A program made the translations under genes and the position numbers. From Pyropia yezoensis (taxonomy: Eukaryota; Rhodophyta; Bangiophyceae; Bangiales; Bangiaceae): 64,000 bases of DNA. Location: NCBI GenBank assembly GCA_009829735.1, contig CM020618.1:14552568-14616567 (forward strand). The letters are read 5' to 3'. The stretch's first letter is position 1; each line of letters opens with the position of its first letter. This document shows positions 13,345 through 52,658 of this stretch, one piece after another. Under the pieces are notes generated by a model. The model was not told the origin of the DNA and searched no databases. It saw only the letters and a program-made list of their open reading frames with translations.

Positions 13345-15792
13345 ATGTCCTATCCCCAGGTGCTTGAAGAGGAGGAAGACCTCCTGATCGCGGAGGAGAT
13401 GGAGGACGACGCGCCTGTCGGTCCCGACGCCGCGCGTTACGGGGTGAGCTCGTCTGACGACGACGGGCCTGCGGTGTCCGTCCGTCTGTCGGCCGGAGGA
13501 CTGTCGTCCGTGTGCAGCGGCACGACGGTGCCGTCGGCCGGAGGTCAACCCGGCGGTCAACCGCGCGTGGCGGCTTCTACCCCCTCTCTGCCGGCTGCCC
13601 GGATGGGGCCTGGTGCCGGTGCCGGCTCACCGCAGCTACCTCAAGATGGTCCGCCCTGCGGCGGAGGTGGCGACCCGCAGCCGACTCCGGCTGGTCAAGG
13701 TGGTCCGGGTGTCCGGGCGGTGACTCCTCGAGGTGGTCCCGACGTTGACGCGGGTGGTGGTGGCGGTGCGACACCCGGTGCGGTGGGTCAAGACGGTGCG
13801 GGTGTCCGCACGGCCGGGGCTCCGGCTCCGGAGGCTGTCCCAGTGCCTTCCACTTCCGAGGCGGGGGCTACGCCGACGGGTGGTGCCGGCGCCGGTGCCG
13901 TACCTGCGGTGCCGCGGGCGTCGAGCGGTCAAGACGCTCCTTCTCCCATGGCGGTTGACACCGGGAGTTACTCCGGGCGGGCGCCCGCCCTTCTTCTTCC
14001 TCCTCGGCCTCGTCCATCTCCGACGTCGGCCCCTCTGCCGGTGGTGCGTCCCCCGGCGCCCCCGATTCTTCCTGGTCCTGCCCGGGTTGCCCCGTTGGGT
14101 GGCGGCGTCGCCGTGGCGGCGGGTCAACCCGCCATGTCGGTGTCCGACTTGGTGGCTCGGGTTCGAGGCCTCACGGTGCAAGAGTCGATGGAGTCCGATG
14201 GGCGTATGCGGGTGGACTTCCACCTGGTGCATCCCCGTGGAGAATCCTCCCGGCGCGTCAAGGTGGACCCGTGCTGGGAGCGGGAGTTGGTGCGGCTGGT
14301 CAACCAGCCGAACGCGGTCCGGGTGGAACACCATTGGATCCTGAGTCAGCCGGACGACCGGCATGCGCAGCTCTGGCGCACCCGGGTGGGACGGGGTGAG
14401 GTCTACCTCGACCCCAACTTCGGGGTCTGCGACTTGATTGCCCCCGCGTTGCCGCGGGAGATTGACTACCCGGCTAGTGCTCGGGGGATTGCGGCGGCGG
14501 CGGAGCCGGTTGCGTTTGGGGAGACGGTGAGCCGTACCGGTCGGTATCCCGACTTTGACTACTACCCGGGGGTACCCCCGTATCTGTCGTTGACGGCTCC
14601 CTACCCGCCCATGGCGGGGTTGAAGTCGGCGTCGAGTTGGCGACGTAACCATGGTGTCATGGCAGATGCGTTCCGCACGGATATAACGTGTGCGTTGCAG
14701 ACCGGCAACGGTCGTGCTCCGGTATACACTCCCGTGCGCCCGCCGCTATGGCAGGAGGGGTGGGAACCCGCCCCTGCTTTCCGGTTTGACACCGGCTCCT
14801 GCCTTCGCTACTTCGGGAGTGTGTTGGCCTCGCGACCGGTCCACCCGTTGCAGGGTACCTTCACCCTTGAGGTTACCCTCGGGCAGGCTTCATCCTTCTT
14901 GCTGTCCGTCCGCCGGCAGGGTCGTCTGTTTCATCTTCCGACGGGTGTCCGTCGGCACATCGCGCAGTTGGGCGTGGATCTGATAGCTGCCAAGACCGGG
15001 TTGGCCCGGGAGTTCGAAGCCCTGCTGGCTGTTCACGATGCCGTGAACTGGGCTGGGGTGTTGGCCCTTCCCCCGTACCGGGACCCGCAGGCTGGGGCTT
15101 CCCCCTTGCCTCGTCACTCGTTGCGTGTCCGGCGTACTCAGCCGGGTGAGCCTAGTTGCCATGGGTGGGCGTCCACCGAGGCCGTTCCTGACCTGGGTAT
15201 TCCCATGGTTATCCATGACCCTCTTCAGGTCCTTGCTCCGTGGTTCGGTAACCCGATGCCGGCGGCGGTTGGCCGTCGTCCCCGAGAGTGGGGCTCTGTG
15301 GGTGGGGAGCGTGAGGTGTCCCGTCGTCGGGCGGAGTACCGCCGTGGTTACGGTGGAGCCCCTTCGGTAGGGTCCTACCGGGCCTCGTATCAGGTGCCAC
15401 CGGCTCCGGTGGTAGCCGTGTCGGCTCCTATGGCTCCTCTGGCTGCGCCAGTGTCACCTCCCGCCCCTGTCCTACATGACGGGGGTCCCCGTCTCTGGTA
15501 TGAGGGCGTTGACGCCCTTGTTACCCGCGCCATGCGTGGGGGTCTCTCTGTTAGCTGGGGGGATATCCCCCCAGGTGCTGCTCTGGTTGGGTCAGCGCGT
15601 TGCTTCGGTGGCGTGCTGGACCGCCTCCAGAAAGCTCTGGAGGACGTGGAGGCTGGTCGCAGCACCCTCGTCCAGCTATGCACCGAGGTAACTCGGGTGG
15701 TCGACCGTCGTGACATTGCCGACCGGTGGAGCACGGAGGTATACGCGCTTACGCGTGAGTGGCCTCCCTCGGGCAGTGGGTCTACCCACTGA
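13345..15792 (+). CDS. Antisense ORF protein of gypsy 1 (function unknown)
   Basis: 815 codons on the strand opposite gag-pol, lying between the pol stop and the 3' LTR and convergent with pol. I start at ATG 13345 (MSYPQVLEEEEDLLIAEE); the frame is open upstream but without a better ATG. Acidic N-terminus (residues 4-25), then about 230 residues rich in Pro, Gly, Ala and Ser, then a folded-looking half. The core resembles the antisense proteins of elements 2 and 3: a W-rich segment (LWQEGWEP), then RYFGSVLASR, then RLFHLPTGVRRHIAQLGVD (compare LWHLP in the other two). No membrane segment, signal peptide, zinc motif or known enzyme motif seen, so it does not look like an envelope protein. Transcription would need a promoter in 12758-13344 or in the 3' LTR read backwards. 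Confidence 0.75.
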   Translation: MSYPQVLEEEEDLLIAEEMEDDAPVGPDAARYGVSSSDDDGPAVSVRLSAGGLSSVCSGTTVPSAGGQPGGQPRVAASTPSLPAARMGPGAGAGSPQLPQDGPPCGGGGDPQPTPAGQGGPGVRAVTPRGGPDVDAGGGGGATPGAVGQDGAGVRTAGAPAPEAVPVPSTSEAGATPTGGAGAGAVPAVPRASSGQDAPSPMAVDTGSYSGRAPALLLPPRPRPSPTSAPLPVVRPPAPPILPGPARVAPLGGGVAVAAGQPAMSVSDLVARVRGLTVQESMESDGRMRVDFHLVHPRGESSRRVKVDPCWERELVRLVNQPNAVRVEHHWILSQPDDRHAQLWRTRVGRGEVYLDPNFGVCDLIAPALPREIDYPASARGIAAAAEPVAFGETVSRTGRYPDFDYYPGVPPYLSLTAPYPPMAGLKSASSWRRNHGVMADAFRTDITCALQTGNGRAPVYTPVRPPLWQEGWEPAPAFRFDTGSCLRYFGSVLASRPVHPLQGTFTLEVTLGQASSFLLSVRRQGRLFHLPTGVRRHIAQLGVDLIAAKTGLAREFEALLAVHDAVNWAGVLALPPYRDPQAGASPLPRHSLRVRRTQPGEPSCHGWASTEAVPDLGIPMVIHDPLQVLAPWFGNPMPAAVGRRPREWGSVGGEREVSRRRAEYRRGYGGAPSVGSYRASYQVPPAPVVAVSAPMAPLAAPVSPPAPVLHDGGPRLWYEGVDALVTRAMRGGLSVSWGDIPPGAALVGSARCFGGVLDRLQKALEDVEAGRSTLVQLCTEVTRVVDRRDIADRWSTEVYALTREWPPSGSGSTH

Positions 15793-16106
15793 GGAGTGCT
15801 ATTTGTTTGTGAGGGAGAGGGCCCCGGCAACCCTTATGGTAGCCGGGTAGTAGTGAGTATAAACTCATCCCCCGCTGGGGGCATTGCTTGCCTCTGTTTG
15901 CTGCCCTGGGGAGTACCCCTTCTGGCTCAGTGGTGCCTTGCCTCCCGCCCAACTTCTTCCGGTTGGTTCATGCTTGGGGAGGTTATCCTCCCTCACTTTG
16001 TGTCTTGGCTTGGGGAGGTCCTCCTCCCGTGTAAGCTCCCTAGTTACTTCGATATTATCGGAGTTAGCCTTTACCTTTAAGTTAACTTATTAAGGTTTAG
16101 GTTTTT

Positions 16107-16202
16107 ACTTAGTTACCTAAGCTTAGCTCTACTTAGTTACCTAAGCTTGGTTCGACTTAGAAACCTAAGTCTGATTTGACTTAGAAACCTAAGTCTGCCG
16201 TA
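16107..16202. repeat. Four tandem 24-bp hairpin units between convergent ORFs
   Basis: Units start at 16107, 16131, 16155 and 16179. Each contains CTTAG-N4-CTAAG (loops TTAC, TTAC, AAAC, AAAC). The block is AT-rich against a GC-rich background, and the preceding 16060-16106 is also AT-rich (AAGTTAACTT). It lies between the antisense ORF stop (15792) and the pol stop (16274), so it could act on transcript 3' ends from both directions (inference). Confidence 0.85.
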
Positions 16203-16273
16203 ACCATGTCACACCCTACTTAGTAGGTATAAGCCTCACCCCCCAACAGCCGAAGTCGGTGTCGGTTGGGTTG

Positions 16274-17941
16274 TTACAGTAGGCGTCGTCGCCTCATGTA
16301 AGGCATGAGTAGTTGGCGGGGTATATTCGCCGCCTGTTCCCAGGTGGGTGAGTCGTATCCGACCCACATAACCTTGACGTACCAGGGTCCTGGTATGTCC
16401 GGGTCGGTGTGTCCGACCACGCTCTCTACTTGGTATGGAATCCCATCCGGTCCCACCGGGTCATCCGACCGGTGGGTTGTAAGAGCTTCATGTAGCAACC
16501 CAGCCGGTACCGGCTGAGGCTGTTCCGGCTTCGGAGCAGGTGTGACATCATTCATACTGATGCGTTGGATCTCCGTATCGGAGTGTAAGATAACAGAGTG
16601 GTCATCTCTGTGGAGGATCTGGTACGGTCCCTTGACCGGTTGCATAAGCTTGTTCCCTCGGAACTTCTGGTGTCTGATGTAGACCCAGTCACCTGTTACC
16701 AGGGTTGCGTTGCGCACCCGTAGTCGGGCGTCGAAGTTCTTCTTATACCGAAGTTGTGTTCTGTCAAGGGCACCCTTGAGCTTAGGAATCATCCACGATA
16801 GCTTGGCCAACCAAGCTAGGTGGATGCGTTCGGCGGGTCGGCCCTTCGGTGTATCATACCGAGTGCACCTGCCGGGCGGCAGCGTCAGGTTACCGACGCC
16901 TAGTGGCATGACCCACTCCAGCGGAGCAATGTTTGTGCTCCGATGTGGCCTGGCATTGTATGCCAGGGTGAGTACGGACAGAAGCCTGTCCCAAGTGTTC
17001 GTGTGCTCGGCCACGTAGCACTGTAGCATCTTTACGATGGTGCGGTTGAACCGCTCCACCTGCCCGTTGGACTGCGGGTGGTAGTCGGATGCCCGACGTG
17101 GTTCGATACCGAACATTCCCAGGACCTTAGTGCAGAATGCCGACGTAAGGTTTGCTCCGTTATCGGAGAGGAGTTGCTTCATGACTCCGTATGCACTGAT
17201 CCAGTGGTCAACCACTGCGTTCATGATCGTGTATGCCGTATCATTCGGGATGGCTGCCGCCCTTGACAGCTTAGTGAAGCGGTCAGACATGACCAGGATG
17301 TACCTGTTCCCTTCTTCCGTTATCGGAAGTGGCCCGAGTATGTCGATAGCGACTTGCTCGTTGGGCCCATCAGGTGGGAATAGCTTCATGGCAGACGCCT
17401 GCCTATGTAGACTCATGCGGTTACGCGCACAGGGGTGGCATCCCCTTACGTGGTCGACCACGTCGACGGCCATTGCTGGCCAGTAGAAGAACCTTCGCAT
17501 TGCTGCGAACATTCGTGAACCTCCCGGGTGTCCGGCTGTAGGGTTCTCATGTTCTCGTTCCATGACGGCTTGCCGTAAGGACACGGGAACCACGACTTGA
17601 TGTCGTCCATCGGCGGGTGCCCGCCGGTATATGAGTCCGTCTTCGTTCTCGGAGAAGATGCCGGCCGTACCGGCCAGGAGGTTAGCACGATGACGTCTAC
17701 AGTCATCGTCGTTGGCCTGTGCCTCGCGGAAGTCCGCGAGGGTCAATGGGCACGCAAGGTGTGCCATGGCATGGTCAGCCATACCCTGGGTAGCATTACC
17801 CACCATGCACACCGGTACTACCGGGATGTCCTCGTCCACCGGGCGGGTATCCCCGCTCGGTGTGTCGAGTCGAGACAACGCGTCTCCGAGGTGGTGGGTT
17901 GACCCAGCCTTATACACCGTGCGGTAGTCGTGCTCGGCCAT
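16274..17941 (-). pseudogene. Gypsy 1 pol, C-terminal part (RNase H end, integrase, chromodomain)
   Basis: This is the downstream half of pol, cut from 22965-25463 by element N; frame arithmetic across N plus one TSD copy shows the halves are in register. It starts with the end of RNase H and its linker (HHLGDALSRLD). The integrase follows: zinc finger H...H...CHPC, then D (VAIDILGPLP), D (LSDNGAN) and E (VERFNRT). The C-terminus carries a chromodomain-like segment (WYVKVMWVGYDSPTWE) and ends YMRRRRLL. No internal stop or frameshift. As the locus stands this half is separated from gag and RT and should be non-functional. Confidence 0.88.
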
Positions 17942-18409
17942 TGTGGCAGTATTGACCCCCAGGTAGGGGGCAACACGTGCCATGCAAGGGGCGGCAGGCC
18001 ACTAGCCTGATCCGTTCCTCCCCCTGCATTTGGGTCCATATTCCCTAAGTTCGGGATAGTTAGCTTAGTAGTAAATCCAACTTGGATTTGAGGGTTTTCT
18101 GCATTTATCGTCTTGAATTTTCGTGTGGCCCGGTGGGCAGGTGCTGGGGTGGGAGATTCTGAGTGGCGAGATTCTGAGTGGACCCTGGGGGGATAAGGGG
18201 AGGGACAGCGGGGCTTGGCCCTGCGTCCCCGTCCCGACCAAGAAACTGTTGGACCACACACCATCTTCTTGTTTGTCCGTGGGGGGATTGCCCCACAACA
18301 GGGATAGAGTGTGTGCGACTTGCACTTCTTCCGGTTCCCCCGACACGGGAGGCAGCCCTCGCACACCGCCCCAACTTGGGTACTGTGTGTGCGAGTGGTT
18401 TTTGCCACA
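17942..18409 (+). repeat. Element N 5' LTR
   Basis: 468 bp with perfect 7-bp terminal inverted repeats TGTGGCA...TGCCACA. Contains a 15-bp tandem duplication of GAGATTCTGAGTGG(C/A) near 18150-18180. The same LTR occurs four times in the window, and no difference between copies was seen by eye. Confidence 0.95.
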
Positions 18410-18410
18410 T

Positions 18411-18428
18411 TTGGTGGAGCAGCAGGGG
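18411..18428 (+). other. Element N primer-binding site
   Basis: TTGGTGGAGCAGCAGGGG lies against the 5' LTR. It is the same sequence as in element 2 (44559-44576) and gypsy 1 (27863-27880). Confidence 0.85.
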
Positions 18429-18512
18429 ACAGAGGTAAACTTTACCTTCGGGTGCACCCGGGTGTAGGGGGCCCTCTGTCTCAGAGGAACGGTGGTCTTG
18501 GACTGTGTCGTG

Positions 18513-18966
18513 TGGATCGTTAGCCAACACGGCTGGATCGGACCTCCCGACGTTCGGGAAACTCTCCGGTGACGACTTTACCCCGGCGCCTTTGAATACT
18601 GGCCAGACACAGGGTGTACCTGGGGTCGCGGAGGTGCTAGAGGCACTCCAGCCAGCAGGGCCGTGGGTATCGGTGCGGGCGGTATGCCACCCCGACCCAG
18701 TCGGGTGTTCACCCTGAGGGTCTTTCTCGGACCGGTGGTTCGCACTTCGGCCACCGGGTGGTACACTCAAAGGGAACGTCCCAAGGTGAGAGGACTGTCC
18801 CCGCGAGATCCACTCGGGTTGGATTCAACTTCGGCATAGAGCCGTCGCCAACTAGGCGGGTGGAGGACGGCGGACCTTCACTCGTCGGTGATGGGCTCGA
18901 GCCTGTGACAGGGGTCGTAGCAAGTTGCTACCCCCGCCACACTCAAAGAAAGTATCTTTGATCGGG
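18513..18966 (+). pseudogene. Element N gag 5' remnant
   Basis: Corresponds to the first part of the element 2 gag (44677 onward), but the aligned gag ATG is ACG here, and frameshifts and a stop follow. Divergence from element 2 is clearly higher here (about one base in eight to ten by eye) than in the 3' half of the element. Similarity ends near 18903; about 65 bp of unmatched sequence follow before homology resumes in pol. Confidence 0.75.
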
Positions 18967-20095
18967 AGCCAAGTTCGGCTATATCGACCAACATGAGGGA
19001 CCGGTAGTAGCGGCCACCCTCAACGCGGGCGCGAGTAGCGACCCGAGGTCCGGAAAGGAGAAGCACCAAGCCAAGTCGGCCGCCTCTCCTCGTCCCCATG
19101 TGAACATGGAGGGTGTTCCACCCAGGTTGAGGGTTCAAGGTGAACGCCTCTTGGACCAATATCACAAGTTGTGGGATGGTCAATTGGGACTCATGAGAGC
19201 CACCCAACACCGGATCGAGTTGAAACCCGGTGTACCCCCTATACGCCAACAACCGTATAGGGGAGGGCCCCGTTCAAGGGCCCTCGTCAAGGAGCGCTTC
19301 AACAAAACTATTGTTAGGCAGCTGCGCCACTATGTGAGTGAGCATGTGAAAACGTGGGACCAATACATTTCTATTCTTACCACTGCCTACAATTCGCAGG
19401 TTCACTCATCTACCGGGGAAGTACCCCTCGCTTTTGTGACCCCCCGTCGCGTGCGGTCTATTGCTGTGCGGCGGTCGCTCCCAACTAGGGAGGATGATGG
19501 CAGCACGCCTACTCCTACTGAGAGTAAGGCGGAGTTCGCTGCTAGGCTTGAACACCTCATCCCTAAAGTCAGGGCTGAGATGGACAAAGCACAAAAGCGC
19601 TACAAGCGTACCTTTGACAAAAAGGGGCGCAATGCTAAGCATGTCCCCGAACAGGGTGACTGGGTGCTGGTTCACTCACACACCCCAACTGGGGGTAAGT
19701 TGGTATTCCAGACGAAGGGGCCGTACCAGGTCCTTCGTACTGATGGGCGGCGTTTCACCATCGAAAGTGACGATGGGGTCCGCACAGTGAACGGACAGGA
19801 CGTGGTCAAAGTTGCACCACCGCCTGCAGGCGACCCAGCTTGGGCGCGTGCTTTGAAAACGTGGCGCCTGCCCTCGCTGCCTGCAGCCAAACAGGGCCCG
19901 CAGGAGTACGTGTTCGACAAGTTCATCGACCACGGCTGGGATGAGGATACTGACCGCCTCATGTTGAGGGTGCGTTGGTTTGGCTACAAAGCCAAGGATG
20001 ATACGTGGGAGTATGTGGAGGACCTTCCTGCTGAGAAGGTCCGGGCGTACTGTGCCCGGAACGAGATAGACCCTAACAGCCCTCCCTCAACGTGA
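18967..20095 (+). pseudogene. Element N pol remnant (pre-RT spacer fused to integrase C-terminus and chromodomain)
   Basis: 18969-19295 matches the element 2 pol region 47464-47790; 19291 onward matches 49799-50603. The junction is a shared GGAGC (47786-47790 and 49799-49803), so 2013 bp were lost in frame at a 5-bp microhomology. An ORF from ATG 19100 runs through the junction to 20095 (331 codons). It contains the post-catalytic integrase segment (ERFNKTIVRQL), the SH3-like linker (GDWVLVHSHTPTGGKLVF) and a chromodomain (LMLRVRWFGYKAKDDTWEY). All integrase catalytic acids except the last E region, and all RT motifs, are missing. It could encode a chromodomain fusion, but is more simply a remnant. 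Confidence 0.85.
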
Positions 20096-20206
20096 GGGAA
20101 GGCCGAGCAACAGTGCCAAGAGAGTGCTTCAAGTCGAAGTGGTACGCAGAGTGGCTTTAAACTACAGCCCTAACCCTCACACTCTCACAACAAAGGCAGC
20201 TGCCAA

Positions 20207-22150
20207 CTAGGCACGCATGCTAGACTCTCCCACTCCACGGCCCTCGCCCTCACGTGGAGGCGAGCGGCGAGACCCACGCCGATAACGGTCTCCACTCGTT
20301 GGAAGGGGCGGCGGCTCCAAGTCGGAACCGTCGCGCCCCTCACGGTCGCGCAAGTGGCGCCGACCGTGGCTACTCTTCTGCCTGGTCTTGCGCGCAAGTT
20401 TGCGACGCAGACGCTGGACAGACTCCGTCTCCGATGGGGTAGAGGACTCCGAGACGGAGTAAGACAACTCGTCTTCCGACACGGAGGGAGAGCGCCGCGA
20501 GTGACGGCGACGACGGCGAGGAGGCGAGTATGCCCGGCTCGCACGACGCTTGCCACGCCCAAGTGGGGTTGGCTGGGGCATAATAGCCCCAATGCGAGCC
20601 AACTCGGCCGTCATAAACTCCGCCACCGACTCGCAACTCGCGGTCGCCACTGCAGTACGAACGCGCTCCTCAAGTTGAGGAGTCTCGGAACTTTGGAGGG
20701 TTGCGGTCGACGCGGCCAACCAGGAAATGGTGCGCACCAACGTGGTGATCATCATCTCTGAGGTTAGAGGCGTGGGCGGTAACACCAACTTGGGGTATAC
20801 CGTCAGGAGGGTGGCCCCCAAGTTGGGAGACACCGGTGTGGATGACTCCACGGCCACGCTGATCGGGATGTTCCCGTGAGGCTGGAAAGGAACAGGAGGA
20901 AGCGGAGGGGCACGCCGAGGTGGCGGTACCCGGGTGTAACTGCGACCCCGACTTGGGGCCCCCGCAGTAGGTTGAGTCATATGGTCATCATATGAGGGCA
21001 CAGCCATAACTATGGGCTTGTCCGGGGGTGGCGCAGTGTGACGATCCACCCCCGGGGCATACGGGTAGTTCCCGATGCCCAACCCCTCTCGTAGGACCAC
21101 ACGGCCGTCGTGAAGTTCACGAGCGACCCACACGAACTGGCGAAGTGCGCCATCGTCCTTGGGCCCCCGAGTGGGGCGGCGCAACTTGTGCTCAATGCTC
21201 TCCCACTCGATAAACTTGTGGAGGCGGAGCATCTCCTCAAGTAGAGTGAGTTGTCCTGACGAGCACCCCTCAGCAACTAGCTGAGGGGTGAGCTGTTCCA
21301 AACCCTGGATGAGCCGGAGGGGGAGGTGCCAGAGCATCCCCCGCCGCTGAACACATGACACCCAGGTCGACATGACCTCGAGGAGCCACTGGGTGGCCAA
21401 CATGGCCCACACCAGATGATCAGGGCCAGCCGTCAACATGACGGAGCCGAAGTGGTCAAGCAACCGTGGCAACAATGCCGGGAACCCGTAGGGGACCTCA
21501 ACTTGAGGCCACCACTCGGGCTTCTTCGGGTAGTATTGCTCCTTACTGGCAGCAGACTGCTGAGGAAACTCAAGTTGAGCCGAGGTCACCAAGTAGGGAC
21601 CTCGCCGGAAGTCCTTCTCCATCCGCACATCAAAGTGATGAGTGTGCGGATCGGCCTCGTGAAGGTACGGGGGGCGAGTTGCCACCGCGTCCCAAGTGAA
21701 GGTCGGCAAGTCGCCGGGACCCGGGATAGTTCCCCCGCGGTCCACCATGGCCTTGGCCCGTTGGACGTCTTCAACCTCCTCGTCGTCCAGGAAGGCAAAC
21801 TGGTCCGTCCTGAAGCCGGCCGGGAACCCGACCCTACGGGGATACTTCTCCCGTAGGCGGTCCCATACCCGGCCCATCGCTGCGCCAAGTCGGCCACAGC
21901 GAAGAACAGTCAACCCCTCCTCATAAAGAGGCCAAGCGGGGTAAAACCACCGCCCCAAGGCCTCACGCGGGACAACTTGTCCCGCCTCCGGGGGAGATCC
22001 TGCCGTCAACCCAAAGCCGGGTGACGCGGGAGTCCCACCCCCCGGAGCGATCGCGGAGCCCCCGCCGGAAGTCCCGGCAGGCGCTGCACCGTAGGAGGTG
22101 TCCTCCATACGCTCATCGAGAGAGTCCGTCTCCACTCCCGGAGTCGCCAT
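20207..22150 (-). CDS. Antisense ORF protein in element N (intact)
   Basis: 647 codons from ATG 22150 (MATPGVETDSLDERMEDT); upstream TTG extension ignored. It differs from the element 2 copy (50715-52658) by one residue: Asn here, Asp there, in GIG(N/D)YPYAPGVD. I count nine nucleotide differences, eight of them synonymous, while the neighbouring pol remnant has about 22 differences in 800 bp with about seven changing the protein. The core contains PEWWPQVEVPYGFPALLPRL, HFGSVML and GMLWHLPLRLIQGLEQL. The C-terminus is rich in Arg-Ser (RRASRAYSPPRRRRRHSRRS), like nuclear RS domains. No transmembrane segment or enzyme motif seen. Survival of an intact ORF in an element without its own enzymes argues for a role in trans or in the transposon life cycle (inference). 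Confidence 0.8.
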   Translation of the reverse strand: MATPGVETDSLDERMEDTSYGAAPAGTSGGGSAIAPGGGTPASPGFGLTAGSPPEAGQVVPREALGRWFYPAWPLYEEGLTVLRCGRLGAAMGRVWDRLREKYPRRVGFPAGFRTDQFAFLDDEEVEDVQRAKAMVDRGGTIPGPGDLPTFTWDAVATRPPYLHEADPHTHHFDVRMEKDFRRGPYLVTSAQLEFPQQSAASKEQYYPKKPEWWPQVEVPYGFPALLPRLLDHFGSVMLTAGPDHLVWAMLATQWLLEVMSTWVSCVQRRGMLWHLPLRLIQGLEQLTPQLVAEGCSSGQLTLLEEMLRLHKFIEWESIEHKLRRPTRGPKDDGALRQFVWVARELHDGRVVLREGLGIGNYPYAPGVDRHTAPPPDKPIVMAVPSYDDHMTQPTAGAPSRGRSYTRVPPPRRAPPLPPVPFQPHGNIPISVAVESSTPVSPNLGATLLTVYPKLVLPPTPLTSEMMITTLVRTISWLAASTATLQSSETPQLEERVRTAVATASCESVAEFMTAELARIGAIMPQPTPLGRGKRRASRAYSPPRRRRRHSRRSPSVSEDELSYSVSESSTPSETESVQRLRRKLARKTRQKSSHGRRHLRDREGRDGSDLEPPPLPTSGDRYRRGSRRSPPREGEGRGVGESSMRA

Positions 22151-22478
22151 GGCTCTCCCCAAGTTGGGGAGAGACGTCCTGGCTATCGCGGCACGAGACC
22201 CGCCTCGAGTTGAGGGGGACTCGGATCGTGGGTAAACGGGTGGCCTCCCCAGCGTGGGGTGGCCCCGTGTAAGGTGAAGGAGAAGTGGTGGTGGTGGTGA
22301 GGTGTGAACCGAGGAGAGCAAGCTGCCAAGTGGGCAAGCTTGAGGAGAGGGGCGGCCAACGTGACCGCCTCCACATCCGCGTTACGTACTCAAGGGGGGA
22401 CAGCAAGTCGCGTCCCCCCCAACGCCGAGACGTGCGTTTACGCACCCCCTCACAGGGCCGACCGGGTCGGTCGGAACT

Positions 22479-22491
22479 GAGGAGAGGGGAG
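22479..22491 (+). other. Element N polypurine tract
   Basis: GAGGAGAGGGGAG directly before the 3' LTR; identical to 52988-53000 in element 2. Confidence 0.8.
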
Positions 22492-22959: not shown

Positions 22960-22964
22960 GCCAT

Positions 22965-44089: not shown

Positions 44090-44557
44090 TGTGGCAGTAT
44101 TGACCCCCAGGTAGGGGGCAACACGTGCCATGCAAGGGGCGGCAGGCCACTAGCCTGATCCGTTCCTCCCCCTGCATTTGGGTCCATATTCCCTAAGTTC
44201 GGGATAGTTAGCTTAGTAGTAAATCCAACTTGGATTTGAGGGTTTTCTGCATTTATCGTCTTGAATTTTCGTGTGGCCCGGTGGGCAGGTGCTGGGGTGG
44301 GAGATTCTGAGTGGCGAGATTCTGAGTGGACCCTGGGGGGATAAGGGGAGGGACAGCGGGGCTTGGCCCTGCGTCCCCGTCCCGACCAAGAAACTGTTGG
44401 ACCACACACCATCTTCTTGTTTGTCCGTGGGGGGATTGCCCCACAACAGGGATAGAGTGTGTGCGACTTGCACTTCTTCCGGTTCCCCCGACACGGGAGG
44501 CAGCCCTCGCACACCGCCCCAACTTGGGTACTGTGTGTGCGAGTGGTTTTTGCCACA
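44090..44557 (+). repeat. Element 2 5' LTR
   Basis: 468 bp, TGTGGCA...TGCCACA inverted ends; same sequence by eye as 17942-18409, 22492-22959 and 53001-53468. Confidence 0.95.
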
Positions 44558-44558
44558 T

Positions 44559-44576
44559 TTGGTGGAGCAGCAGGGG
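44559..44576 (+). other. Element 2 primer-binding site
   Basis: TTGGTGGAGCAGCAGGGG one base inside the LTR. Confidence 0.85.
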
Positions 44577-44676
44577 AGAGAGGTAAACTTTACCTCCGGG
44601 TGCACCCGGGTGTAGGGGGCCCTCTGTCTCAGAGGAACGGTGGACTTGGACCGTGTCATACGGATCGTTAGCCAAC

Positions 44677-46623
44677 ATGGCTAGCTCGGACCCCCCGTCG
44701 TCCGGGGAGTACACGGGTGACGCACGTACTTCAGTGCCTTTGAATACTGGTGAGACACAGGTGGGTTTACCTGGGGTCGCAGAGGGACTGGAGGTCCCTC
44801 AAGCCAGCAGGACTGGAAGTGCGGGCGGGCAACAGGCCACCCCGACTCAGTCGGGAGTTCACTCGGGTGACACTTCTGACGTGGGTGGGCCGAAGTCTGG
44901 CCACCGCGTGGTATACTCAACGGGAACGTCCCAAGGGGTGAGGACTGTCCCCGCGAGTTCCACTCGGGTTGGAGCCAACTTTGGCTTGGAGTCGTCGCCA
45001 ACTAGGCTTTCGGAGGACGGTGGACCTCCGTTGGTCGGCGATGGGCTCGCGCCCATGCCCCCGGTTGAGACCCCTGAGGAACGTGGTTACCCCTCAGGTG
45101 GACTCCCGGAGGCGGACCGAGACTCAACTGGAGTCGTCAATCCACTCCTCGCGGAAACTGTCCGACGGGAGGCGACCAATGTGTTGCGGCAGACTTTGCC
45201 GGACCTGGTGGTCACGATGACGAATACTATTCTGAATCAGATTGTGGCGAGTTTGCCAGATGGCCTTAATGTCCAGACCGGATTGGGGCCTTCGAGCCCG
45301 CAGGCGCAGGGGGTGCCCCCCCTGACACCTATCTCGGGTCGCCCTGAACAGGGGGCGACCCCTGTGACTCCCAACGAGGGAGCCACACCATACTCGGTGG
45401 GGCGTACGCCCTTCATGGGGGAGTTCCCCCCGACAACACCGGCGGCTACACCAAGCGCGCCGCGCCGGACTACAGGCACTGTGGGTGAACTTACCCCAGT
45501 GCCACAGCGGCTGTTCCCTCAACGTGAGGTGCCGCCCAAGATCCAGGTAGCCAACCCGGTCTACCAGAGGATCTTTGACTGTGAGACCTACGCCCTCCAC
45601 AACAAGTCGGTGGCGTATGGTCCTGACCAGGCCCGAGCCATGGGCCGTGCCAAGAAGAATGCACTTCACTCTTTTGGGCACAAAGCGGAGTGGGATGGAA
45701 CTCCCCCCCTCCGTGTCTTTGAGTTCCTACGTCGTTTCACAAAAGCCTGTGACGACAATGCCATAAGTGAAGGCATGGCTTTTTACATGCTACAGGAGTT
45801 TACGAAGGGAGACCTGCGGACAGAACTTATGTCCGTCATGCCCAGCTCCTCAAGTGGAGGCGCTGGGGAGGTGACGTCCTATTTGGAGCTCGTCAACTGG
45901 TTGTTGAGGGCCATGGTTGATGAAGCGGCGTTGGCTTCTCAAGTCGAGGAGTTTACGCAAGCCCATCAGGAAGAGGCGGAGGACGAGTTCTCCTTTGCGG
46001 AGCGAGTCCGTAAGCTCAACAATCTTTGTGGGTTTCTCCATCCACAAGCTGTGGTGAAGAGTCGGTTTGTGGAAGGACTCCACTGGTCAGTCCGGATGGA
46101 GACCCGGGAGCATAACACTGCCCGGGCGACCCTGGCCGAGTTGGCTAGGTTCGCCTACCGCAGAGGCGAGGCCTACCGCAAGTTGCGGGAAGAACAACGC
46201 CAGGAGCGTCAGGCCGAGTTGGCCAAGGAACGGGAAGAGGCGCGCCAGGCCAGAGAGTTGCGAGAGGCACGCCGAATCCGCAAGGAGAGGGTGGTAGCTG
46301 CCGTGGGAACTTCCCAGGGTACCTCTTCGTCTTCCCCAGTTGGGAAGACCCCTCCGGGAACTGACCATCGGTGTTGGAACTGCAACTCCGATGGACACTG
46401 GGCATATGACTGCCCCAAGTTGAGTAAACGCATCCAACAACTTGTTAGGAATGCGAGTAAGAAGTCGGCTACGAGCGAAGTACGTTCACGCCGCGAGGGT
46501 GGGTCTCGACCGGTCGTCGCGGTCGCCACACCCTCGGCGGAGGAGGCGGACACGTCGTCCTCGGACTCGTCGTCTTCCTCCCCGCCCTCAGATTCGGACG
46601 CCAAGTCGGCGGGAAACGAATGA
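44677..46623 (+). CDS. Element 2 Gag
   Basis: 648 codons from ATG 44677 (MASSDPPSSGEYTGD); an upstream non-ATG extension to 44653 is unlikely. Low-complexity N-terminal 270 residues, then the capsid-like region beginning NPVYQRIFDCETYALHNKS, with EWDGTPPLRVFEFLRRF and an Arg/Glu-rich coiled stretch (RQERQAELAKEREEARQAR), and a zinc knuckle CWNCNSDGHWAYDC. The C-terminus is Ser-rich and acidic and ends SAGNE. The stop TGA overlaps the pol ATG as ATGA. Homologous along the capsid region to gypsy 3 gag. Confidence 0.9.
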   Translation: MASSDPPSSGEYTGDARTSVPLNTGETQVGLPGVAEGLEVPQASRTGSAGGQQATPTQSGVHSGDTSDVGGPKSGHRVVYSTGTSQGVRTVPASSTRVGANFGLESSPTRLSEDGGPPLVGDGLAPMPPVETPEERGYPSGGLPEADRDSTGVVNPLLAETVRREATNVLRQTLPDLVVTMTNTILNQIVASLPDGLNVQTGLGPSSPQAQGVPPLTPISGRPEQGATPVTPNEGATPYSVGRTPFMGEFPPTTPAATPSAPRRTTGTVGELTPVPQRLFPQREVPPKIQVANPVYQRIFDCETYALHNKSVAYGPDQARAMGRAKKNALHSFGHKAEWDGTPPLRVFEFLRRFTKACDDNAISEGMAFYMLQEFTKGDLRTELMSVMPSSSSGGAGEVTSYLELVNWLLRAMVDEAALASQVEEFTQAHQEEAEDEFSFAERVRKLNNLCGFLHPQAVVKSRFVEGLHWSVRMETREHNTARATLAELARFAYRRGEAYRKLREEQRQERQAELAKEREEARQARELREARRIRKERVVAAVGTSQGTSSSSPVGKTPPGTDHRCWNCNSDGHWAYDCPKLSKRIQQLVRNASKKSATSEVRSRREGGSRPVVAVATPSAEEADTSSSDSSSSSPPSDSDAKSAGNE

Positions 46624-49600
46624 CCGTTGGGGCTGGTCGTCCGAAGCTCACAACGGCAGCCTCGGCCAAGTGGGCCAGGAGGACGAACCAACCGTGCCGG
46701 ATACTGCGGCGACCTAAGGGAGTCCGCCCACCTCGGGTAGGACTCCCCAAGAACGTAAACCCACGTCGGGTCATCGCGGTGCTGACGGGTGAGAACTTCC
46801 AGGTGGCTGGACGGGTGCAACTTGCCCCCGGCCGTGCATGCTGTACCCGTATCGTACTTGATACCGGGTCAGGAGCCTCCTTGATACGCAAGTCGCTATT
46901 ACCAAAGGAGGTGAAGCTCCAACGCTGGAGGTCCAAAGCTGACCATATGATTGACATCAATGGTGGGGTACTTCCCATCGTTGGTGCCGTGACCCTACCA
47001 ACTCGGTTGGGGACCCATGAGGTCGACGTGACCTATGGTGTAGTTGAGAATATATCGGTACCCCTGCTTCTGGGTACCCCTTATGTCGTAACACAAGTGC
47101 CTTTGATTTGTGGCCCTGAGTACTGGGTCAAGTTGATGAATGGGGAGACTATCCCCATCCTTGGTAAGGGAAAGTCTGTGGCTCCTGTGACAGTTTCACA
47201 GTCGAAGCCTGTTTGTTCTGTGAGGGAAGGGTTTACTGCTACTCTGCGTTTAGCCCGTAAAGTCATGTTGCCCCCCAACTCGGTGGCGCACGTGGATGTT
47301 GTAACTGATTATGCGGGGAACGGGTTGGTGCACCCTAACCCCCGTCTTGCTCGCAAGCACCAAGTGCATGTTGCCCTTGGCACGATGGACTCCAAAGCCG
47401 GAGTCCCGTGGAGGATCCAGGTGATGAACCTGAGCTCGTCGCCCAAGTTCTTCAAGTCGGGGGCCAAGTTCGGCTATATCGACCAACACGAGGGACCGGT
47501 AGTAGCGGTCACCCTCAGCGCGGGCGCAAGTGGCGACCCGAAGTCCGGAAAGGAGAAGCATCAAGCCAAGTCGGCCGCCTCTCCTCGGCCCCAGGTAAAC
47601 ATGGAGGGTGTTCCACCCAGGTTGAGGGTTCAAGTTGAACGCCTCTTGGACCAATATCACAAGTTGTGGGATGGTCAATTGGGACTCATGAGAGCTACCC
47701 AACACCGGATCGAGTTGAAACCCGGTGCGCCCCCTATACGCCAACAACCGTATAGGGGGGGACCCCGTTCAAGGGCCCTCGTTAAGGAGCAAGTTGCTCG
47801 CATGGAGGCCCTCGATGTGATCGAGGCCAGCAACGCCGAGTGGGCGAGTCCGGTGGTGATCGTCCCCAAAGTTGATGGGACCCCCCGGTTCTGTATCGAC
47901 TACCGTAAGCTCAACGAGAGCACGGTGAAGGATAGTTATCCCCTACCTCGGATGGATGACTGTCTGGACTCTCTGGGGGAGGCAAACGTGTTCTCTACCC
48001 TGGACTGTAACGCGGGGTACTGGCAAATTCCCATTGCCCCGGAGGACAGGCATAAAACTACCTTTACCTGTCACTGTGGTACCTACCAGTGTAAGCGTCT
48101 ACCGTTTGGCCTGTGTAACGCGCCGGCAACTTTCCAGCGCGCTATGGACATGATTCTGGCCGGAGTACGGTGGCAGATCTGTCTCGTGTACCTAGACGAT
48201 ATCATTGTGTTCTCCCGAAGTCCGGAGGAACACATTGGCCATCTTGGCCAGGTGTTCAAGCTACTTGCTGACGCCGGAGTGTCACTGAAGGCGAGTAAGT
48301 GCCACCTCTTCACTCAAGAGGTGGAGTACTTGGGACATGTTGTCCGTCCGGGGCGTCTCAGTGTCAACGAGAAAAACTTGAGGGCCATCCGCAAGGCTCA
48401 GTACCCCCGGACCCAGACCCAGATGAGGAGCTTCCTCGGGATGTGTAACGTGTACCGACGTTTCACTAAGGGCTTCGCCAAAGTGGCGAAGCCGTTGAAT
48501 GAGTTAGTGAGCTCGACGCTACCGAAGAACCTGCCTCCCCCAAGTCGGGTGGAGCAGGAATCCTTTGAGACTCTTCGGGACCTTCTGCTGAAGCCCCCTA
48601 TCCTGGCTATTCCCAGGTTGGGAGGCCACTACATCCTGGATGTGGACGCTAGCTACGACCAACTTGGTTGTGTGTTGCTTCAGCAACAGCCGGACAAGGA
48701 GTACTTGCCGGTGGGATACTTCAGCAAGGGGCTAAACTCGGCCGAGAAGAACTACGGAGTCACCGAGTTGGAAGGACTCGCAGTGGTATGGGCGGTGACG
48801 TCACTTCGTCACTACCTAGAGGGTGAGAAGTTCCTCATCCGCTGTGACCACCGCGCGTTGCAGTTCATCTTCAAGACGGACTGTACGAACACTCGTCTCA
48901 ACCGGTGGAGGGTGCGACTTGCACCCTTCAACTTTGATATTGAGTACCGACCTGGCAGGCAACATGCCCTTGCCGACGGCCTCTCTCGGGTACCTACCGA
49001 GGGACTGGACACCACCCCAGTCGATGAGGACATCCCCATCGTGGGGGTAGTCACGCGCTCGGGTCAGGCGTTGAATCCCGAGGCGCCAGGGAACAAGAAG
49101 TACTTGCCCCTGTCCCTGGACGAAGTAGTGAAGGCCCAGGCCGAGGATCCCTTCTGCAAGTCGCAGAGGGATACCCTGGATACAGTGGCGGAGACGCGGT
49201 TCTTCCTGGGAGACGATGGCCTCCTCATGAGGAGGGGGGTATTCCAGGGGACCGAACAACTTGTCGTCCCCGCATCCCTCAAGGACAGTATCCTTGAGAG
49301 GGAGCATAACGCTCCCACGGGTGGACACCTGGGGTCTAGTAAACTATACCAGACCCTGAGGACCAGGTACTACTGGCCGTCCATGGTGGTGGACATCTAC
49401 AGTTGGGTGGCTGCCTGCACAAGTTGTGCACAGAACCGTCTGATGGAACGGCGGCCTACTACGGCTATGCTATTGTTCCCGGCCAAGGAGCCCTTCGCCG
49501 CGTTGGCGATGGACATCCTTGGGCCACTGCCAGTGACCGAGGAGGGCAACCAGTACCTCCTGGTCATCTGTGACCGCTTCACGAAACTTACGCGAGCGAT

Positions 49601-50603
49601 CCCACTGGCAGAGATCACGGCCATGTCGGTCGTGTCAGCCTTCCTAGATCATTGGGTTGCCGCGTATGGCATTCCGGATAGTACACTATCGGACAATGGA
49701 CCGCAATTTGCGTCTGTACTGTTTCAAGGAGTGCTGGATATGTTGGGGGTTAAGGCAAACTATGCCACCCCCTACCACCCACAAACTAATGGGCAGGTGG
49801 AGCGCTTCAACAAAACTATTGTTAGGCAGCTGCGCCATTATGTGAGTGAGCACGTGAAGACGTGGGACCAACACATTTCTATTCTGACCACTGCCTACAA
49901 TTCGCAGGTTCACTCATCTACCGGGGAAGTACCCCTCGCTTTTGTGACCCCCCGTCGCGTGCGGTCTATTGCCGTGCGGCAGCCGCTCCCAACTAGGGAG
50001 GATGGTGGCAGTACGCCCACTCCTACTGAGAGTAAGGCGGAGTTCGCTGCTAGGCTTGAAAACCTCATCCCTAAAGTCAGGGCTGAGATGGACAAAGCAC
50101 AAAAGCGCTACAAGCGTACCTTTGACAAAAAGGTGCGCAACGCCAAGCATGTCCCCGAGCAGGGTGACTGGGTATTGGTCCACTCACACACCCCAACTGG
50201 GGGTAAGTTGGTGTTCCAGACGAAGGGGCCGTACCAGGTCCTTCGTACTGATGGGCGGCGCTTCACCATCGAAAGTGACGATGGGGTCCGCACAGTGAAC
50301 GGACAGGACGTGGTCAAAGTTGCACCACCGCCTGCAGGCGACCCAGCTTGGGCGCGTGCTTTGAAAACGTGGCGCCTGCCCTCGCTGCCTGCGGCCAAAC
50401 AGGGCCCGCAGGAGTACGTGTTCGACAAGTTCATCGACCACGGATGGGATGAGGATACTAACCGCCTCATGTTGAGGGTGCGTTGGTTTGGCTACAAAGC
50501 CAAGGATGATACGTGGGAGTATGTGGAGGACCTTCCTGCTGAGAAGGTCCGGGCGTACTGTGCCCGGAACGAGATAGACCCTAACAGCCCTCCCTCAACG
50601 TGA
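46620..50603 (+). CDS. Element 2 Pol (protease, RT, RNase H, integrase, chromodomain)
   Basis: 1327 codons from ATG 46620, overlapping the gag stop by four bases (ATGA), which suggests termination-reinitiation. Protease VLDTGSGAS with Asp 81. RT from about 430: FCIDYRKLNE, TLDCNAGYWQIP, LPFGLCNAPATFQ, and YLDDIIVFS near 524. RNase H with LDVDASYDQLGCVLLQQ. Integrase: zinc finger REHNAPTGGH...CTSCAQNR near 893-935, catalytic D (AMDILGPLP, about 963), D (SDNGPQF, about 1024), E (QVERFNKT, about 1061), then the GDWVLVHS linker. Chromodomain at about 1265-1310 (LMLRVRWFGYKAKDDTWEY). All motifs complete; no stop or frameshift. Chromodomains of this class bind histone marks and steer integration (family knowledge). 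Confidence 0.95.
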   Translation: MTVGAGRPKLTTAASAKWARRTNQPCRILRRPKGVRPPRVGLPKNVNPRRVIAVLTGENFQVAGRVQLAPGRACCTRIVLDTGSGASLIRKSLLPKEVKLQRWRSKADHMIDINGGVLPIVGAVTLPTRLGTHEVDVTYGVVENISVPLLLGTPYVVTQVPLICGPEYWVKLMNGETIPILGKGKSVAPVTVSQSKPVCSVREGFTATLRLARKVMLPPNSVAHVDVVTDYAGNGLVHPNPRLARKHQVHVALGTMDSKAGVPWRIQVMNLSSSPKFFKSGAKFGYIDQHEGPVVAVTLSAGASGDPKSGKEKHQAKSAASPRPQVNMEGVPPRLRVQVERLLDQYHKLWDGQLGLMRATQHRIELKPGAPPIRQQPYRGGPRSRALVKEQVARMEALDVIEASNAEWASPVVIVPKVDGTPRFCIDYRKLNESTVKDSYPLPRMDDCLDSLGEANVFSTLDCNAGYWQIPIAPEDRHKTTFTCHCGTYQCKRLPFGLCNAPATFQRAMDMILAGVRWQICLVYLDDIIVFSRSPEEHIGHLGQVFKLLADAGVSLKASKCHLFTQEVEYLGHVVRPGRLSVNEKNLRAIRKAQYPRTQTQMRSFLGMCNVYRRFTKGFAKVAKPLNELVSSTLPKNLPPPSRVEQESFETLRDLLLKPPILAIPRLGGHYILDVDASYDQLGCVLLQQQPDKEYLPVGYFSKGLNSAEKNYGVTELEGLAVVWAVTSLRHYLEGEKFLIRCDHRALQFIFKTDCTNTRLNRWRVRLAPFNFDIEYRPGRQHALADGLSRVPTEGLDTTPVDEDIPIVGVVTRSGQALNPEAPGNKKYLPLSLDEVVKAQAEDPFCKSQRDTLDTVAETRFFLGDDGLLMRRGVFQGTEQLVVPASLKDSILEREHNAPTGGHLGSSKLYQTLRTRYYWPSMVVDIYSWVAACTSCAQNRLMERRPTTAMLLFPAKEPFAALAMDILGPLPVTEEGNQYLLVICDRFTKLTRAIPLAEITAMSVVSAFLDHWVAAYGIPDSTLSDNGPQFASVLFQGVLDMLGVKANYATPYHPQTNGQVERFNKTIVRQLRHYVSEHVKTWDQHISILTTAYNSQVHSSTGEVPLAFVTPRRVRSIAVRQPLPTREDGGSTPTPTESKAEFAARLENLIPKVRAEMDKAQKRYKRTFDKKVRNAKHVPEQGDWVLVHSHTPTGGKLVFQTKGPYQVLRTDGRRFTIESDDGVRTVNGQDVVKVAPPPAGDPAWARALKTWRLPSLPAAKQGPQEYVFDKFIDHGWDEDTNRLMLRVRWFGYKAKDDTWEYVEDLPAEKVRAYCARNEIDPNSPPST

Positions 50604-50714
50604 GGGAAGGCCGAGCAACAGTGCCAAGAGAGTGCTTCAAGTCGAAGTGGTACGCAGAGTGGCTTTAAACTACAGCCCTAACCCTCACACTCTCACAACA
50701 AAGGCAGCTGCCAA
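50604..50714. other. Convergent intergenic gap in element 2
   Basis: 110 bp separate the pol stop from the antisense ORF stop; includes CCCTAACCCTCACACTCTCAC. It must hold the 3' ends of the antisense transcript and lies under the genomic RNA. No hairpin array like that of element 1. Confidence 0.5.
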
Positions 50715-52658
50715 CTAGGCACGCATGCTAGACTCTCCCACTCCACGGCCCTCGCCCTCACGTGGAGGCGAGCGGCGAGACCCACGCCGATAACGGTCTC
50801 CACTCGTTGGAAGGGGCGGCGGCTCCAAGTCGGAACCGTCGCGCCCCTCACGGTCGCGCAAGTGGCGCCGACCGTGGCTACTCTTCTGCCTGGTCTTGCG
50901 CGCAAGTTTGCGACGCAGACGCTGGACAGACTCCGTCTCCGATGGGGTAGAGGACTCCGAGACGGAGTAAGACAACTCGTCTTCCGACACGGAGGGAGAG
51001 CGCCGCGAGTGACGGCGACGACGGCGAGGAGGCGAGTATGCCCGGCTCGCACGACGCTTGCCACGCCCAAGTGGGGTTGGCTGGGGCATAATAGCCCCAA
51101 TGCGAGCCAACTCGGCCGTCATAAACTCCGCCACCGACTCGCAACTCGCGGTCGCCACTGCAGTACGAACGCGCTCCTCAAGTTGAGGAGTCTCGGAACT
51201 TTGGAGGGTTGCGGTCGACGCGGCCAACCAGGAAATGGTGCGCACCAACGTGGTGATCATCATCTCTGAGGTTAGAGGCGTGGGCGGTAACACCAACTTG
51301 GGGTATACCGTCAGGAGGGTGGCCCCCAAGTTGGGAGACACCGGTGTGGATGACTCCACGGCCACGCTGATCGGGATGTTCCCGTGAGGCTGGAAAGGAA
51401 CAGGAGGAAGCGGAGGGGCACGCCGAGGTGGCGGTACCCGGGTGTAACTGCGACCCCGACTTGGGGCCCCCGCAGTAGGTTGAGTCATATGGTCATCATA
51501 TGAGGGCACAGCCATAACTATGGGCTTGTCCGGGGGTGGCGCAGTGTGACGATCCACCCCCGGGGCATACGGGTAGTCCCCGATGCCCAACCCCTCTCGT
51601 AGGACCACACGGCCGTCGTGAAGTTCACGAGCGACCCACACGAACTGGCGAAGTGCGCCATCGTCCTTGGGCCCCCGAGTGGGGCGGCGCAACTTGTGCT
51701 CAATGCTCTCCCACTCGATAAACTTGTGGAGGCGGAGCATCTCCTCAAGTAGAGTGAGTTGTCCTGACGAGCACCCCTCAGCAACTAGCTGAGGGGTGAG
51801 CTGTTCCAAACCCTGGATGAGCCGGAGGGGGAGGTGCCAGAGCATCCCCCGCCGCTGAACACATGACACCCAGGTCGACATGACCTCGAGGAGCCACTGG
51901 GTGGCCAACATGGCCCACACCAGATGATCAGGGCCAGCCGTCAACATGACGGAGCCGAAGTGGTCAAGCAACCGTGGCAACAATGCCGGGAACCCGTAGG
52001 GGACCTCAACTTGAGGCCACCACTCGGGCTTCTTCGGGTAGTATTGCTCCTTACTGGCAGCAGACTGCTGAGGAAACTCAAGTTGAGCCGAGGTCACCAA
52101 GTAGGGACCTCGCCGGAAGTCCTTCTCCATCCGCACATCAAAGTGATGAGTGTGCGGATCGGCCTCGTGAAGGTACGGGGGGCGAGTTGCCACCGCGTCC
52201 CAAGTGAAGGTCGGCAAGTCGCCGGGACCCGGGATAGTTCCCCCGCGGTCCACCATGGCCTTGGCCCGCTGCACGTCCTCGACCTCCTCGTCGTCCAGGA
52301 AGGCAAACTGGTCCGTCCTGAAGCCGGCAGGGAACCCGACCCTACGGGGATACTTCTCCCGTAGGCGGTCCCATACCCGACCCATCGCTGCGCCGAGTCG
52401 GCCACAGCGAAGAACAGTCAACCCCTCCTCATACAGAGGCCAAGCGGGGTAAAACCACCGCCCCAAGGCCTCACGCGGGACAACTTGTCCCGCCTCCGGG
52501 GGAGATCCTGCCGTCAACCCAAAGCCGGGTGACGCGGGAGTCCCACCCCCCGGAGCGATCGCGGAGCCCCCGCCGGAAGTCCCGGCAGGCGCTGCACCGT
52601 AGGAGGTGTCCTCCATACGCTCATCGAGAGAGTCCGTCTCCACTCCCGGAGTCGCCAT
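50715..52658 (-). CDS. Antisense ORF protein of element 2
   Basis: 647 codons from ATG 52658 (MATPGVETDSLDERMEDT). Position, orientation and core match the antisense ORFs of gypsy 1 and 3. Layout: acidic, Gly/Pro-rich N-terminus; a first domain with ALGRWFYPAWPLYEEGLTVL; a core of about 200 residues with PEWWPQVEVPYGFPALLPRL, HFGSVML, LATQWLLEVMSTW and GMLWHLPLRLIQGLEQL; a Pro-rich linker; a helical block (MMITTLVRTISWLAASTATL); and an Arg-Ser-rich tail with a Ser/Glu stretch. The tail suggests a nuclear, RNA- or chromatin-associated protein (inference). Not an envelope protein: no signal peptide or membrane anchor. Function unknown. Confidence 0.82.
   Translation of the reverse strand: MATPGVETDSLDERMEDTSYGAAPAGTSGGGSAIAPGGGTPASPGFGLTAGSPPEAGQVVPREALGRWFYPAWPLYEEGLTVLRCGRLGAAMGRVWDRLREKYPRRVGFPAGFRTDQFAFLDDEEVEDVQRAKAMVDRGGTIPGPGDLPTFTWDAVATRPPYLHEADPHTHHFDVRMEKDFRRGPYLVTSAQLEFPQQSAASKEQYYPKKPEWWPQVEVPYGFPALLPRLLDHFGSVMLTAGPDHLVWAMLATQWLLEVMSTWVSCVQRRGMLWHLPLRLIQGLEQLTPQLVAEGCSSGQLTLLEEMLRLHKFIEWESIEHKLRRPTRGPKDDGALRQFVWVARELHDGRVVLREGLGIGDYPYAPGVDRHTAPPPDKPIVMAVPSYDDHMTQPTAGAPSRGRSYTRVPPPRRAPPLPPVPFQPHGNIPISVAVESSTPVSPNLGATLLTVYPKLVLPPTPLTSEMMITTLVRTISWLAASTATLQSSETPQLEERVRTAVATASCESVAEFMTAELARIGAIMPQPTPLGRGKRRASRAYSPPRRRRRHSRRSPSVSEDELSYSVSESSTPSETESVQRLRRKLARKTRQKSSHGRRHLRDREGRDGSDLEPPPLPTSGDRYRRGSRRSPPREGEGRGVGESSMRA

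Follow-up and report, generated by a model that had tools for sequence, protein, structure and literature searches.

Antisense ORFs in nested Ty3/gypsy elements

Four nested long terminal repeat (LTR) retrotransposons in the genome of the red alga Pyropia yezoensis each carry a long open reading frame (ORF) on the strand opposite gag and pol, and these antisense ORFs and their predicted proteins are the subject of this report. The window, by which we mean the whole stretch of DNA analyzed (64 kb of contig CM020618.1), was resolved by self-comparison into nested LTR retrotransposons; its GC content is 62% and long frames are plentiful. Elements 1, 2 and 3 (El1, El2 and El3) belong to the Ty3/gypsy class, with LTRs, gag and a pol in which protease, reverse transcriptase (RT), RNase H and integrase follow in that order. 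The initial annotation had placed antisense ORFs in these three elements between pol and the 3' LTR, convergent with pol, and all three (815, 638 and 647 residues in El1, El3 and El2, respectively) were found where it put them. A fourth element with an antisense ORF (El4), nested in El1, was absent from that annotation.

El1 (12396..28243, minus strand) was delimited using self-comparison, ORFs and domains. Its two 363-bp LTRs (12396-12758 and 27881-28243) are 100% identical, and the insertion of El4 splits its pol into a 5' part with protease, RT and RNase H (22960..25463, minus strand, within an ORF at 22113-25463 that extends into the El4 LTR) and a 3' part with integrase and a very weak chromodomain match (16274..17983, minus strand), the first bases of which lie within the El4 LTR. 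The gag gene occupies 25472..27655 on the minus strand, and the antisense ORF, encoding the 815-residue protein P0002, occupies 13345..15792 on the plus strand.

El2 (44090..53468, plus strand) is nested in El3 and is bounded by 468-bp LTRs (44090-44557 and 53001-53468) that are 100% identical. Its gag (44677..46623, plus strand) contains a zinc knuckle, and its pol (46620..50603, plus strand) contains RT, RNase H, integrase and a chromodomain-like end. The gag-pol domains of El2 are complete, with pol in one frame and a weak protease match (E 0.056), and pol of El1 and El3 is in pieces. The antisense ORF of El2 (50715..52658, minus strand) encodes the 647-residue protein P0001. A perfect 8-bp inverted repeat (52661-52681) stands directly before its start codon.

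El3 (36854..56487, minus strand), the host of El2, has LTRs at 36854-37401 and 55942-56487 that are 98.5% identical, and its gag lies at 53868..55367 on the minus strand. The pol pieces (40456..43719, minus strand) comprise RT-RNase H (42001-43719), integrase (40978-42000) and a chromodomain-like end (40456-40977). The antisense ORF (38411..40327, plus strand) encodes the 638-residue protein P0003 and is separated from the 3' LTR by a stretch (37402..38410, plus strand) with a 95-bp tandem repeat at 38128-38306.

El4 (17942..22959, plus strand) is a non-autonomous relative of El2. Its 468-bp LTRs (17942-18409 and 22492-22959) are 100% identical to each other and identical to those of El2. Between them lie a mini-pol ORF of 329 residues (19106..20095, plus strand), in which a piece of El2 pol (residues 328-394) is fused to pol residues 1061-1327 (integrase C-terminus and chromodomain-like end), and a 647-residue antisense ORF (20207..22150, minus strand; P0004) that differs from that of El2 by one residue.

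El1 to El3 had been described as chromodomain elements. We regard this as likely: the match to the Pfam chromodomain is in the right position at the integrase C-terminus in all three, but none of its scores (El2, 21.1 bits; El3, 18.3 and 21.8 bits; El1, 12.5 bits) reaches the curated cut-off, 25.1 bits.

As a control for chance, the region between pol and the LTR was dinucleotide-shuffled 300 times for each of the three elements. No shuffle reached the observed ORF length; the maxima were 360 residues for El1, 379 for El3 and 327 for El2. The annotation's view that the proteins are not envelope-like also held: the highest 19-residue Kyte-Doolittle mean across nine proteins was 1.43, with no segment that looks membrane-spanning, and this maximum, together with the antisense orientation, speaks against an envelope-like ORF.

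The antisense proteins are related

Relatedness of the three proteins was strong for El2 and El3 and weaker for El1. BLASTP aligned the El2 and El3 proteins at 36% identity over 293 residues (E 8e-45) and the El1 and El2 proteins at 25% over 189 residues (E 1e-9; E 5e-9 with low-complexity filtering). The El1-El3 pair gave 24% identity (E 5e-5) and, with low-complexity filtering, no report at E 1e-3. Smith-Waterman scores were compared with 200 global and 200 window-preserving shuffles. The El2-El3 score was 429 (shuffle maxima of 76 and 98, respectively), the El1-El2 score was 129 (84 and 99), and the El1-El3 score was 103 (98 and 107). Because the last of these falls within the range of the window-preserving shuffles, the direct El1-El3 score is unconvincing and not decisive alone.

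Profile-profile comparison of the El2/El3-type proteins with the El1-type proteins gave a 217-column match (E 9e-6, probability 83%) in which CDL, GSV, G-L-(W/F)HLP and H...W line up in the same order. With the single El1 protein the match was E 3.6e-6 (87.5%) over 134 columns; adding the El1 relatives thus lengthened the match with no gain in strength. An alignment of nine sequences of both types contains 14 invariant columns, including G316, L318, H320 and L321 in the LWHLP/LFHLP region and a later histidine. The conserved core spans approximately 230 residues and is flanked by poorly conserved tails. At the proposed (F/Y)GSV(L/M) motif, the El3 copy in the window reads YSGSVL; its relative P0005, 97% identical, has YFGSVL. 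On sequence similarity, the three antisense proteins are related.

As had been noted, gag and pol of El1 are distant from those of El2 and El3. In pol, El1 is 42-44% identical to El2 and 55% (RT part) or 40% (integrase part) identical to El3, and El2 and El3 are 63.5% identical. In gag, the values are 25-26% for El1 against El2 and El3, and 50% for El2 against El3. El2 and El3 are therefore the closest pair in pol, gag and the antisense protein (63.5, 50 and 36%), and El1 is more distant in all three. This parallel order of divergence, seen in compared identities rather than in a tree, fits joint descent: the antisense gene, gag and pol were probably passed down together from an ancestor that these lineages shared in Pyropia-like red algae.

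An origin of the antisense protein from gag was considered and rejected. The antisense-gag pairs of El3 and El1 score within their shuffles, and the score of 80 for the El2 pair (reversed sequence, 77; shuffle maxima, 76 and 79) was taken as low-complexity noise.

Coding status and selection

A scan of the same genome for antisense ORFs of other elements returned many further copies, mostly without stops among the best-scoring matches. Stop-free matches numbered 68 of 68 for the El2 type and 59 of 70 for the El3 type, and for the El1 type 52 of 55 scored matches were full length and stop-free; these lists hold the best-scoring candidates and are biased to intact copies. Further families or subfamilies are also present in the genome, with one place 64% identical to P0010 that has two stops, and El1-type matches 50-53% identical to P0015 (67 matches). 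Several El1-type matches list three TGA stops, and nearly all of these reach residues 658-660, compared with an end at approximately 646 in the stop-free matches. We read these stops as lying beyond the natural protein end and conclude nothing from them. At one locus (G000:C2:9880067-9892399), four El1-type antisense ORFs lie in tandem on the same strand at a spacing of 3489 bp, an array of a piece of retrotransposon.

Selection was assessed most fully for the El3 type, for which 32 loci representing 30 distinct copies were examined (two were fetched twice). Changes shared by at least two copies comprised 67 nonsynonymous (N) and 89 synonymous (S) changes and one stop (ratio 0.34), whereas private changes comprised 241N:112S and 14 stops, a neutral ratio of 0.97 (Fisher p 9.5e-8 for shared versus private). 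The same contrast was obtained for RT of El3 (private 0.82, shared 0.25; 18 copies) and for its integrase (private 0.67, shared 0.09; 31 loci, 28 distinct). The ratios for shared changes in the other five frames ranged from 0.43 to 2.4, and the lowest belonged to the opposite-strand frame that shares the third positions of the ORF. Pairwise dN/dS by the NG86 method was 0.034-0.279 for the El2 type (21 pairs among seven ORFs, namely those of El2 and El4 and five located through the matching 5' region; L048 was excluded because its first 287 nt do not match) and 0.177-0.648 for the El3 type (28 pairs among eight copies chosen for divergence). A count of 0N:15S in eight El2 copies was set aside, as these copies had been chosen as best protein matches. 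No sign of positive selection was found in whole-gene tests. The El2- and El3-type ORFs are protein-coding and under purifying selection.

The El3 ORF is gapless in 31 of the 32 loci, with one gap in L040, while the adjoining stretch from the LTR to the start codon has up to 25 gap openings. This stretch (37402..38410) is a candidate promoter region. TATA-like sites are at chance level, with five TATAWA occurrences in the window against 4.76 expected.

Copies with deletions in gag-pol or in the antisense ORF

El4 has lost most of gag-pol and kept the antisense ORF. Compared with El2, its gag remnant shows 24S:47N with stops in all three frames, its pol end shows 17S:7N in an open 329-residue ORF, and its antisense ORF shows 8S:1N. 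The 5' region of El4 was found at 40 places at 99-100% identity (40 scored of 1366 candidates). For seven of these, one of the 68 best El2-type ORF matches lies at the distance expected of the antisense ORF. Six further places were fetched by position (bringing the places looked at to 13 of 40), and five of the six have an intact 647-residue ORF; in the sixth, L048, the first 287 nt are unmatched. The mini-pol ORF is intact in all five fetched copies examined, with dN/dS of 0.14-0.46 (15 pairs). The 5' regions of the El4-type places are 99-100% identical, yet their antisense ORFs lie up to 79 bases from that of El2, so the two halves have different histories.

The opposite loss was seen in the El3 type. 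One copy (L057; G000:C1:10971816-10973650) lacks 1118 bp from within the antisense ORF, and the two edges of the deletion have 8 bases in common. It retains the first 778 nt of the ORF, and beyond the deletion 1065 bp match El3, reaching into the 3' end of pol. Nine of 108 matches, on three chromosomes, break off at one residue (264 or 265 of P0011). In eight of these nine, among them L057, the distance from the start codon to a downstream probe is exactly 819 bp, the value that the same deletion predicts. The deletion junction was read in L057, and its geometry at eight more places is inferred from these end points. The recurrence of the same geometry at scattered places suggests that the deleted El3 copy multiplied.

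Relatives and comparison with known systems

Each of the three protein searches scored the 8000 candidates that shared most words with the query. Within these, the El3 protein matched seven proteins, four named as Pyropia vietnamensis, at 51-57% identity, and the El1 core matched five, three of them from P. vietnamensis, at 45-53%. The profile search returned a single further relative, 97% identical, from a list perhaps filled by low-complexity words.

No Pfam family scored above its cut-off in 13 antisense proteins (a set that leaves aside P0005, P0008, P0009 and P0017), DUF6214 appearing below its cut-off (E 0.086 and 0.014) in P0002 and P0013 only. Five antisense proteins had no match above cut-off in NCBIfam, a collection of bacterial and archaeal families. 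Of two PDB searches, one gave no match and the other gave three at E 0.92 or worse. No relative was found in phages and viral contigs, where one pattern matched 30 stretches, none related. A literature search on antisense ORFs in a red-algal or chromovirus context, with a coverage mostly outside subscription papers, found no description of the core. This agrees with the annotation, which knew of no description of the core in chromodomain elements, and the family is apparently new.

Antisense extra ORFs between pol and the 3' LTR have been reported in Grande (gene23), RIRE2 and Retand (ORF4), plant elements of the Tat/Retand type; passages of PMC7264820 and PMC11963269 describe them as present in most copies, thought to be ancient and of unknown function. 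The algal ORFs have the same position and the same orientation relative to gag-pol. In Retand, a non-chromovirus, 97% of clusters carry a TRP28 domain (PF04195), according to a passage of PMC11963269. The algal proteins differ in that TRP28 had no match at E up to 1 in P0001-P0003 and ten further antisense proteins, in that their elements have chromodomain-like C-termini, and in their red-algal host. Three further comparisons come from passages of PMC7264820. The Grande antisense protein is given there as nuclear and as having its own promoter. PvRetro13 of Phaseolus is described with an antisense ORF2 downstream of pol, the same placement as in the algal elements, and with a reported SMC domain, which the Pfam scan did not find in the 13 algal proteins. 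Boty-like elements of Botrytis cinerea are described with an additional antisense gene, brtn, the subject of Zhao et al. 2011 to judge from its title in the reference list of PMC8365987. Like the algal ORFs, brtn is an additional antisense gene that a gypsy element carries in a non-plant host; the likeness is one of description and no relation is claimed. The placement is one already known from other gypsy elements; the host group is new, and so, apparently, is the protein family.

A looser, working analogy is with retroviruses. Human T-cell leukaemia viruses (HTLV) encode regulatory antisense proteins of the HBZ type. The likeness, again by description, is that of a regulatory protein encoded on the opposite strand near the 3' LTR; hosts and element classes differ. 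Passages of PMC11963269 and PMC7264820 mention HTLV antisense genes and an antisense promoter located within the viral 3' LTR.

A possible role for the antisense protein

Our best explanation, offered tentatively, is that the antisense gene encodes a trans-acting nuclear regulator or anti-silencing protein. In this view, each element carries an accessory protein gene on the strand opposite gag-pol, and this gene would have an antisense transcript of its own. The product would act in trans, and the antisense placement would allow its synthesis without gag-pol. The protein may be a nuclear regulator directed at chromatin or nucleic acid that sustains transcription of the elements or helps them evade silencing. 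Its conserved core would be set between variable tails, and a stretch at the C-terminus has a helical look on visual inspection. A nuclear role is suggested by the arginine-rich C-terminus of the El2 protein P0001 and by analogy with the nuclear Grande protein.

The natural deletions bear on action in trans. Copies without the antisense gene seem to have multiplied, which hints at a protein that can be shared between copies, and complementation in trans may be possible for gag-pol as well as for the antisense protein. Either the antisense protein can, as it appears, act in trans, or individual copies can do without it, and yet selection keeps it in the longer term; this fits a helper or regulatory protein.

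Several observations weigh against this explanation. Among five proteins scanned for basic clusters, P0001 was the sole positive, and none were found in P0002, P0003, P0007 and P0015. Constraint on the El3 ORF is weaker than on integrase (0.34 against 0.09), though comparable to that on RT (0.25). The El4 pattern may stem from template-switch recombination with El2 and not from selection in El4, because the 5' region is near-identical among the 40 places while the ORFs diverge. Likewise, the El3 deletion copies may reflect nothing more than dispensability of the ORF. For the El1 type, the statistics of both homology and selection are moderate: shared changes were 13N:15S (p 0.011) and private changes 14N:13S with two stops (p 0.06) in five copies, two with a stop. 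These were 5 of 55 matches, drawn from the low end of the list, and the test assumes a neutral share of 0.69; the constraint on the El1-type ORF is suggestive only.

The strongest competitor is that the protein is a particle or transport accessory. It would be part of the virus-like particle or pre-integration complex, with nuclear import or RNA chaperoning as examples of its task, and could be packaged from another copy. In El4 the antisense ORF was kept beside the integrase/chromodomain end, in a copy type whose mini-pol ORF is intact in five of five and constrained, and possible complementation in trans is equally compatible with a particle protein. A late structural protein, however, would be expected in sense with gag-pol, whereas the antisense placement would uncouple it from genomic RNA, and the antisense protein has no convincing similarity to gag. 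We consider a particle or import factor possible but favour the nuclear regulator or anti-silencing protein over it.

A role outside transcription in which the protein counters competitors or the host, for instance other elements or a defence nuclease, is unlikely. Variable tails around a better conserved core would suit changing partners, but the whole-gene tests and the lack of a Pfam match above cut-off speak against it. A role of the antisense RNA itself, in double-stranded RNA or copy-number control with the protein incidental, is very improbable. Antisense RNAs that restrain Ty1 are described in a passage of PMC12786077, and the review PMC7264820 permits, in the part consulted, an RNA role alongside a protein; the constraint in the El3 type, however, tracks the reading frame, which speaks against the RNA as the main role. 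Finally, unrelated chance ORFs, for which GC-rich DNA with many long frames offers opportunity, are excluded for the El2 and El3 types by the shuffles, the homology, purifying selection and relatives in another Pyropia, and can be dismissed.

A regulator of this kind would matter beyond the single element. Repeats account for 48% of the P. yezoensis genome and LTR retrotransposons dominate them (a passage of PMC7423979), so that a protein that may control these elements bears on genome size and stability. The ORF also represents, in a group of eukaryotes far from land plants, an antisense accessory gene on which purifying selection is about as strong as on RT, and the natural deletions in both directions, of gag-pol in El4 and of the ORF in El3, make the question of action in trans directly testable. 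A more far-reaching proposal, which we regard as doubtful, is that the proteins form a new red-algal family of trans-acting retrotransposon regulators serving as a common good across diverged chromodomain-type lineages. Were this so, the contribution of El4 would be limited to the antisense protein plus a fragment with the chromodomain, and the El3 deletion copies, without the antisense protein, would keep at least the integrase end. Both kinds would spread by complementation, in an interdependent, multipartite-like population of elements within the genome.

Other features of the window

The remainder of the window holds features of other kinds. Inverted repeats of 335 bp (97.6% identical; 1-335 and 10003-10337) enclose arrays of a 21-bp GC-rich repeat and a copia-type element (RVT_2, 1299-7938). 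A further element at 29599-34635 has 306-bp direct terminal repeats (98%); a scan of three ORFs gave no RT match, and one of the three shows a weak, below-cut-off match (E 0.0025) to Phage_int_SAM_1, a tyrosine-recombinase N-terminal domain. On the minus strand at 62389-63684, an ORF with a SET domain (E 4.4e-5, above the cut-off) is perhaps a host gene.

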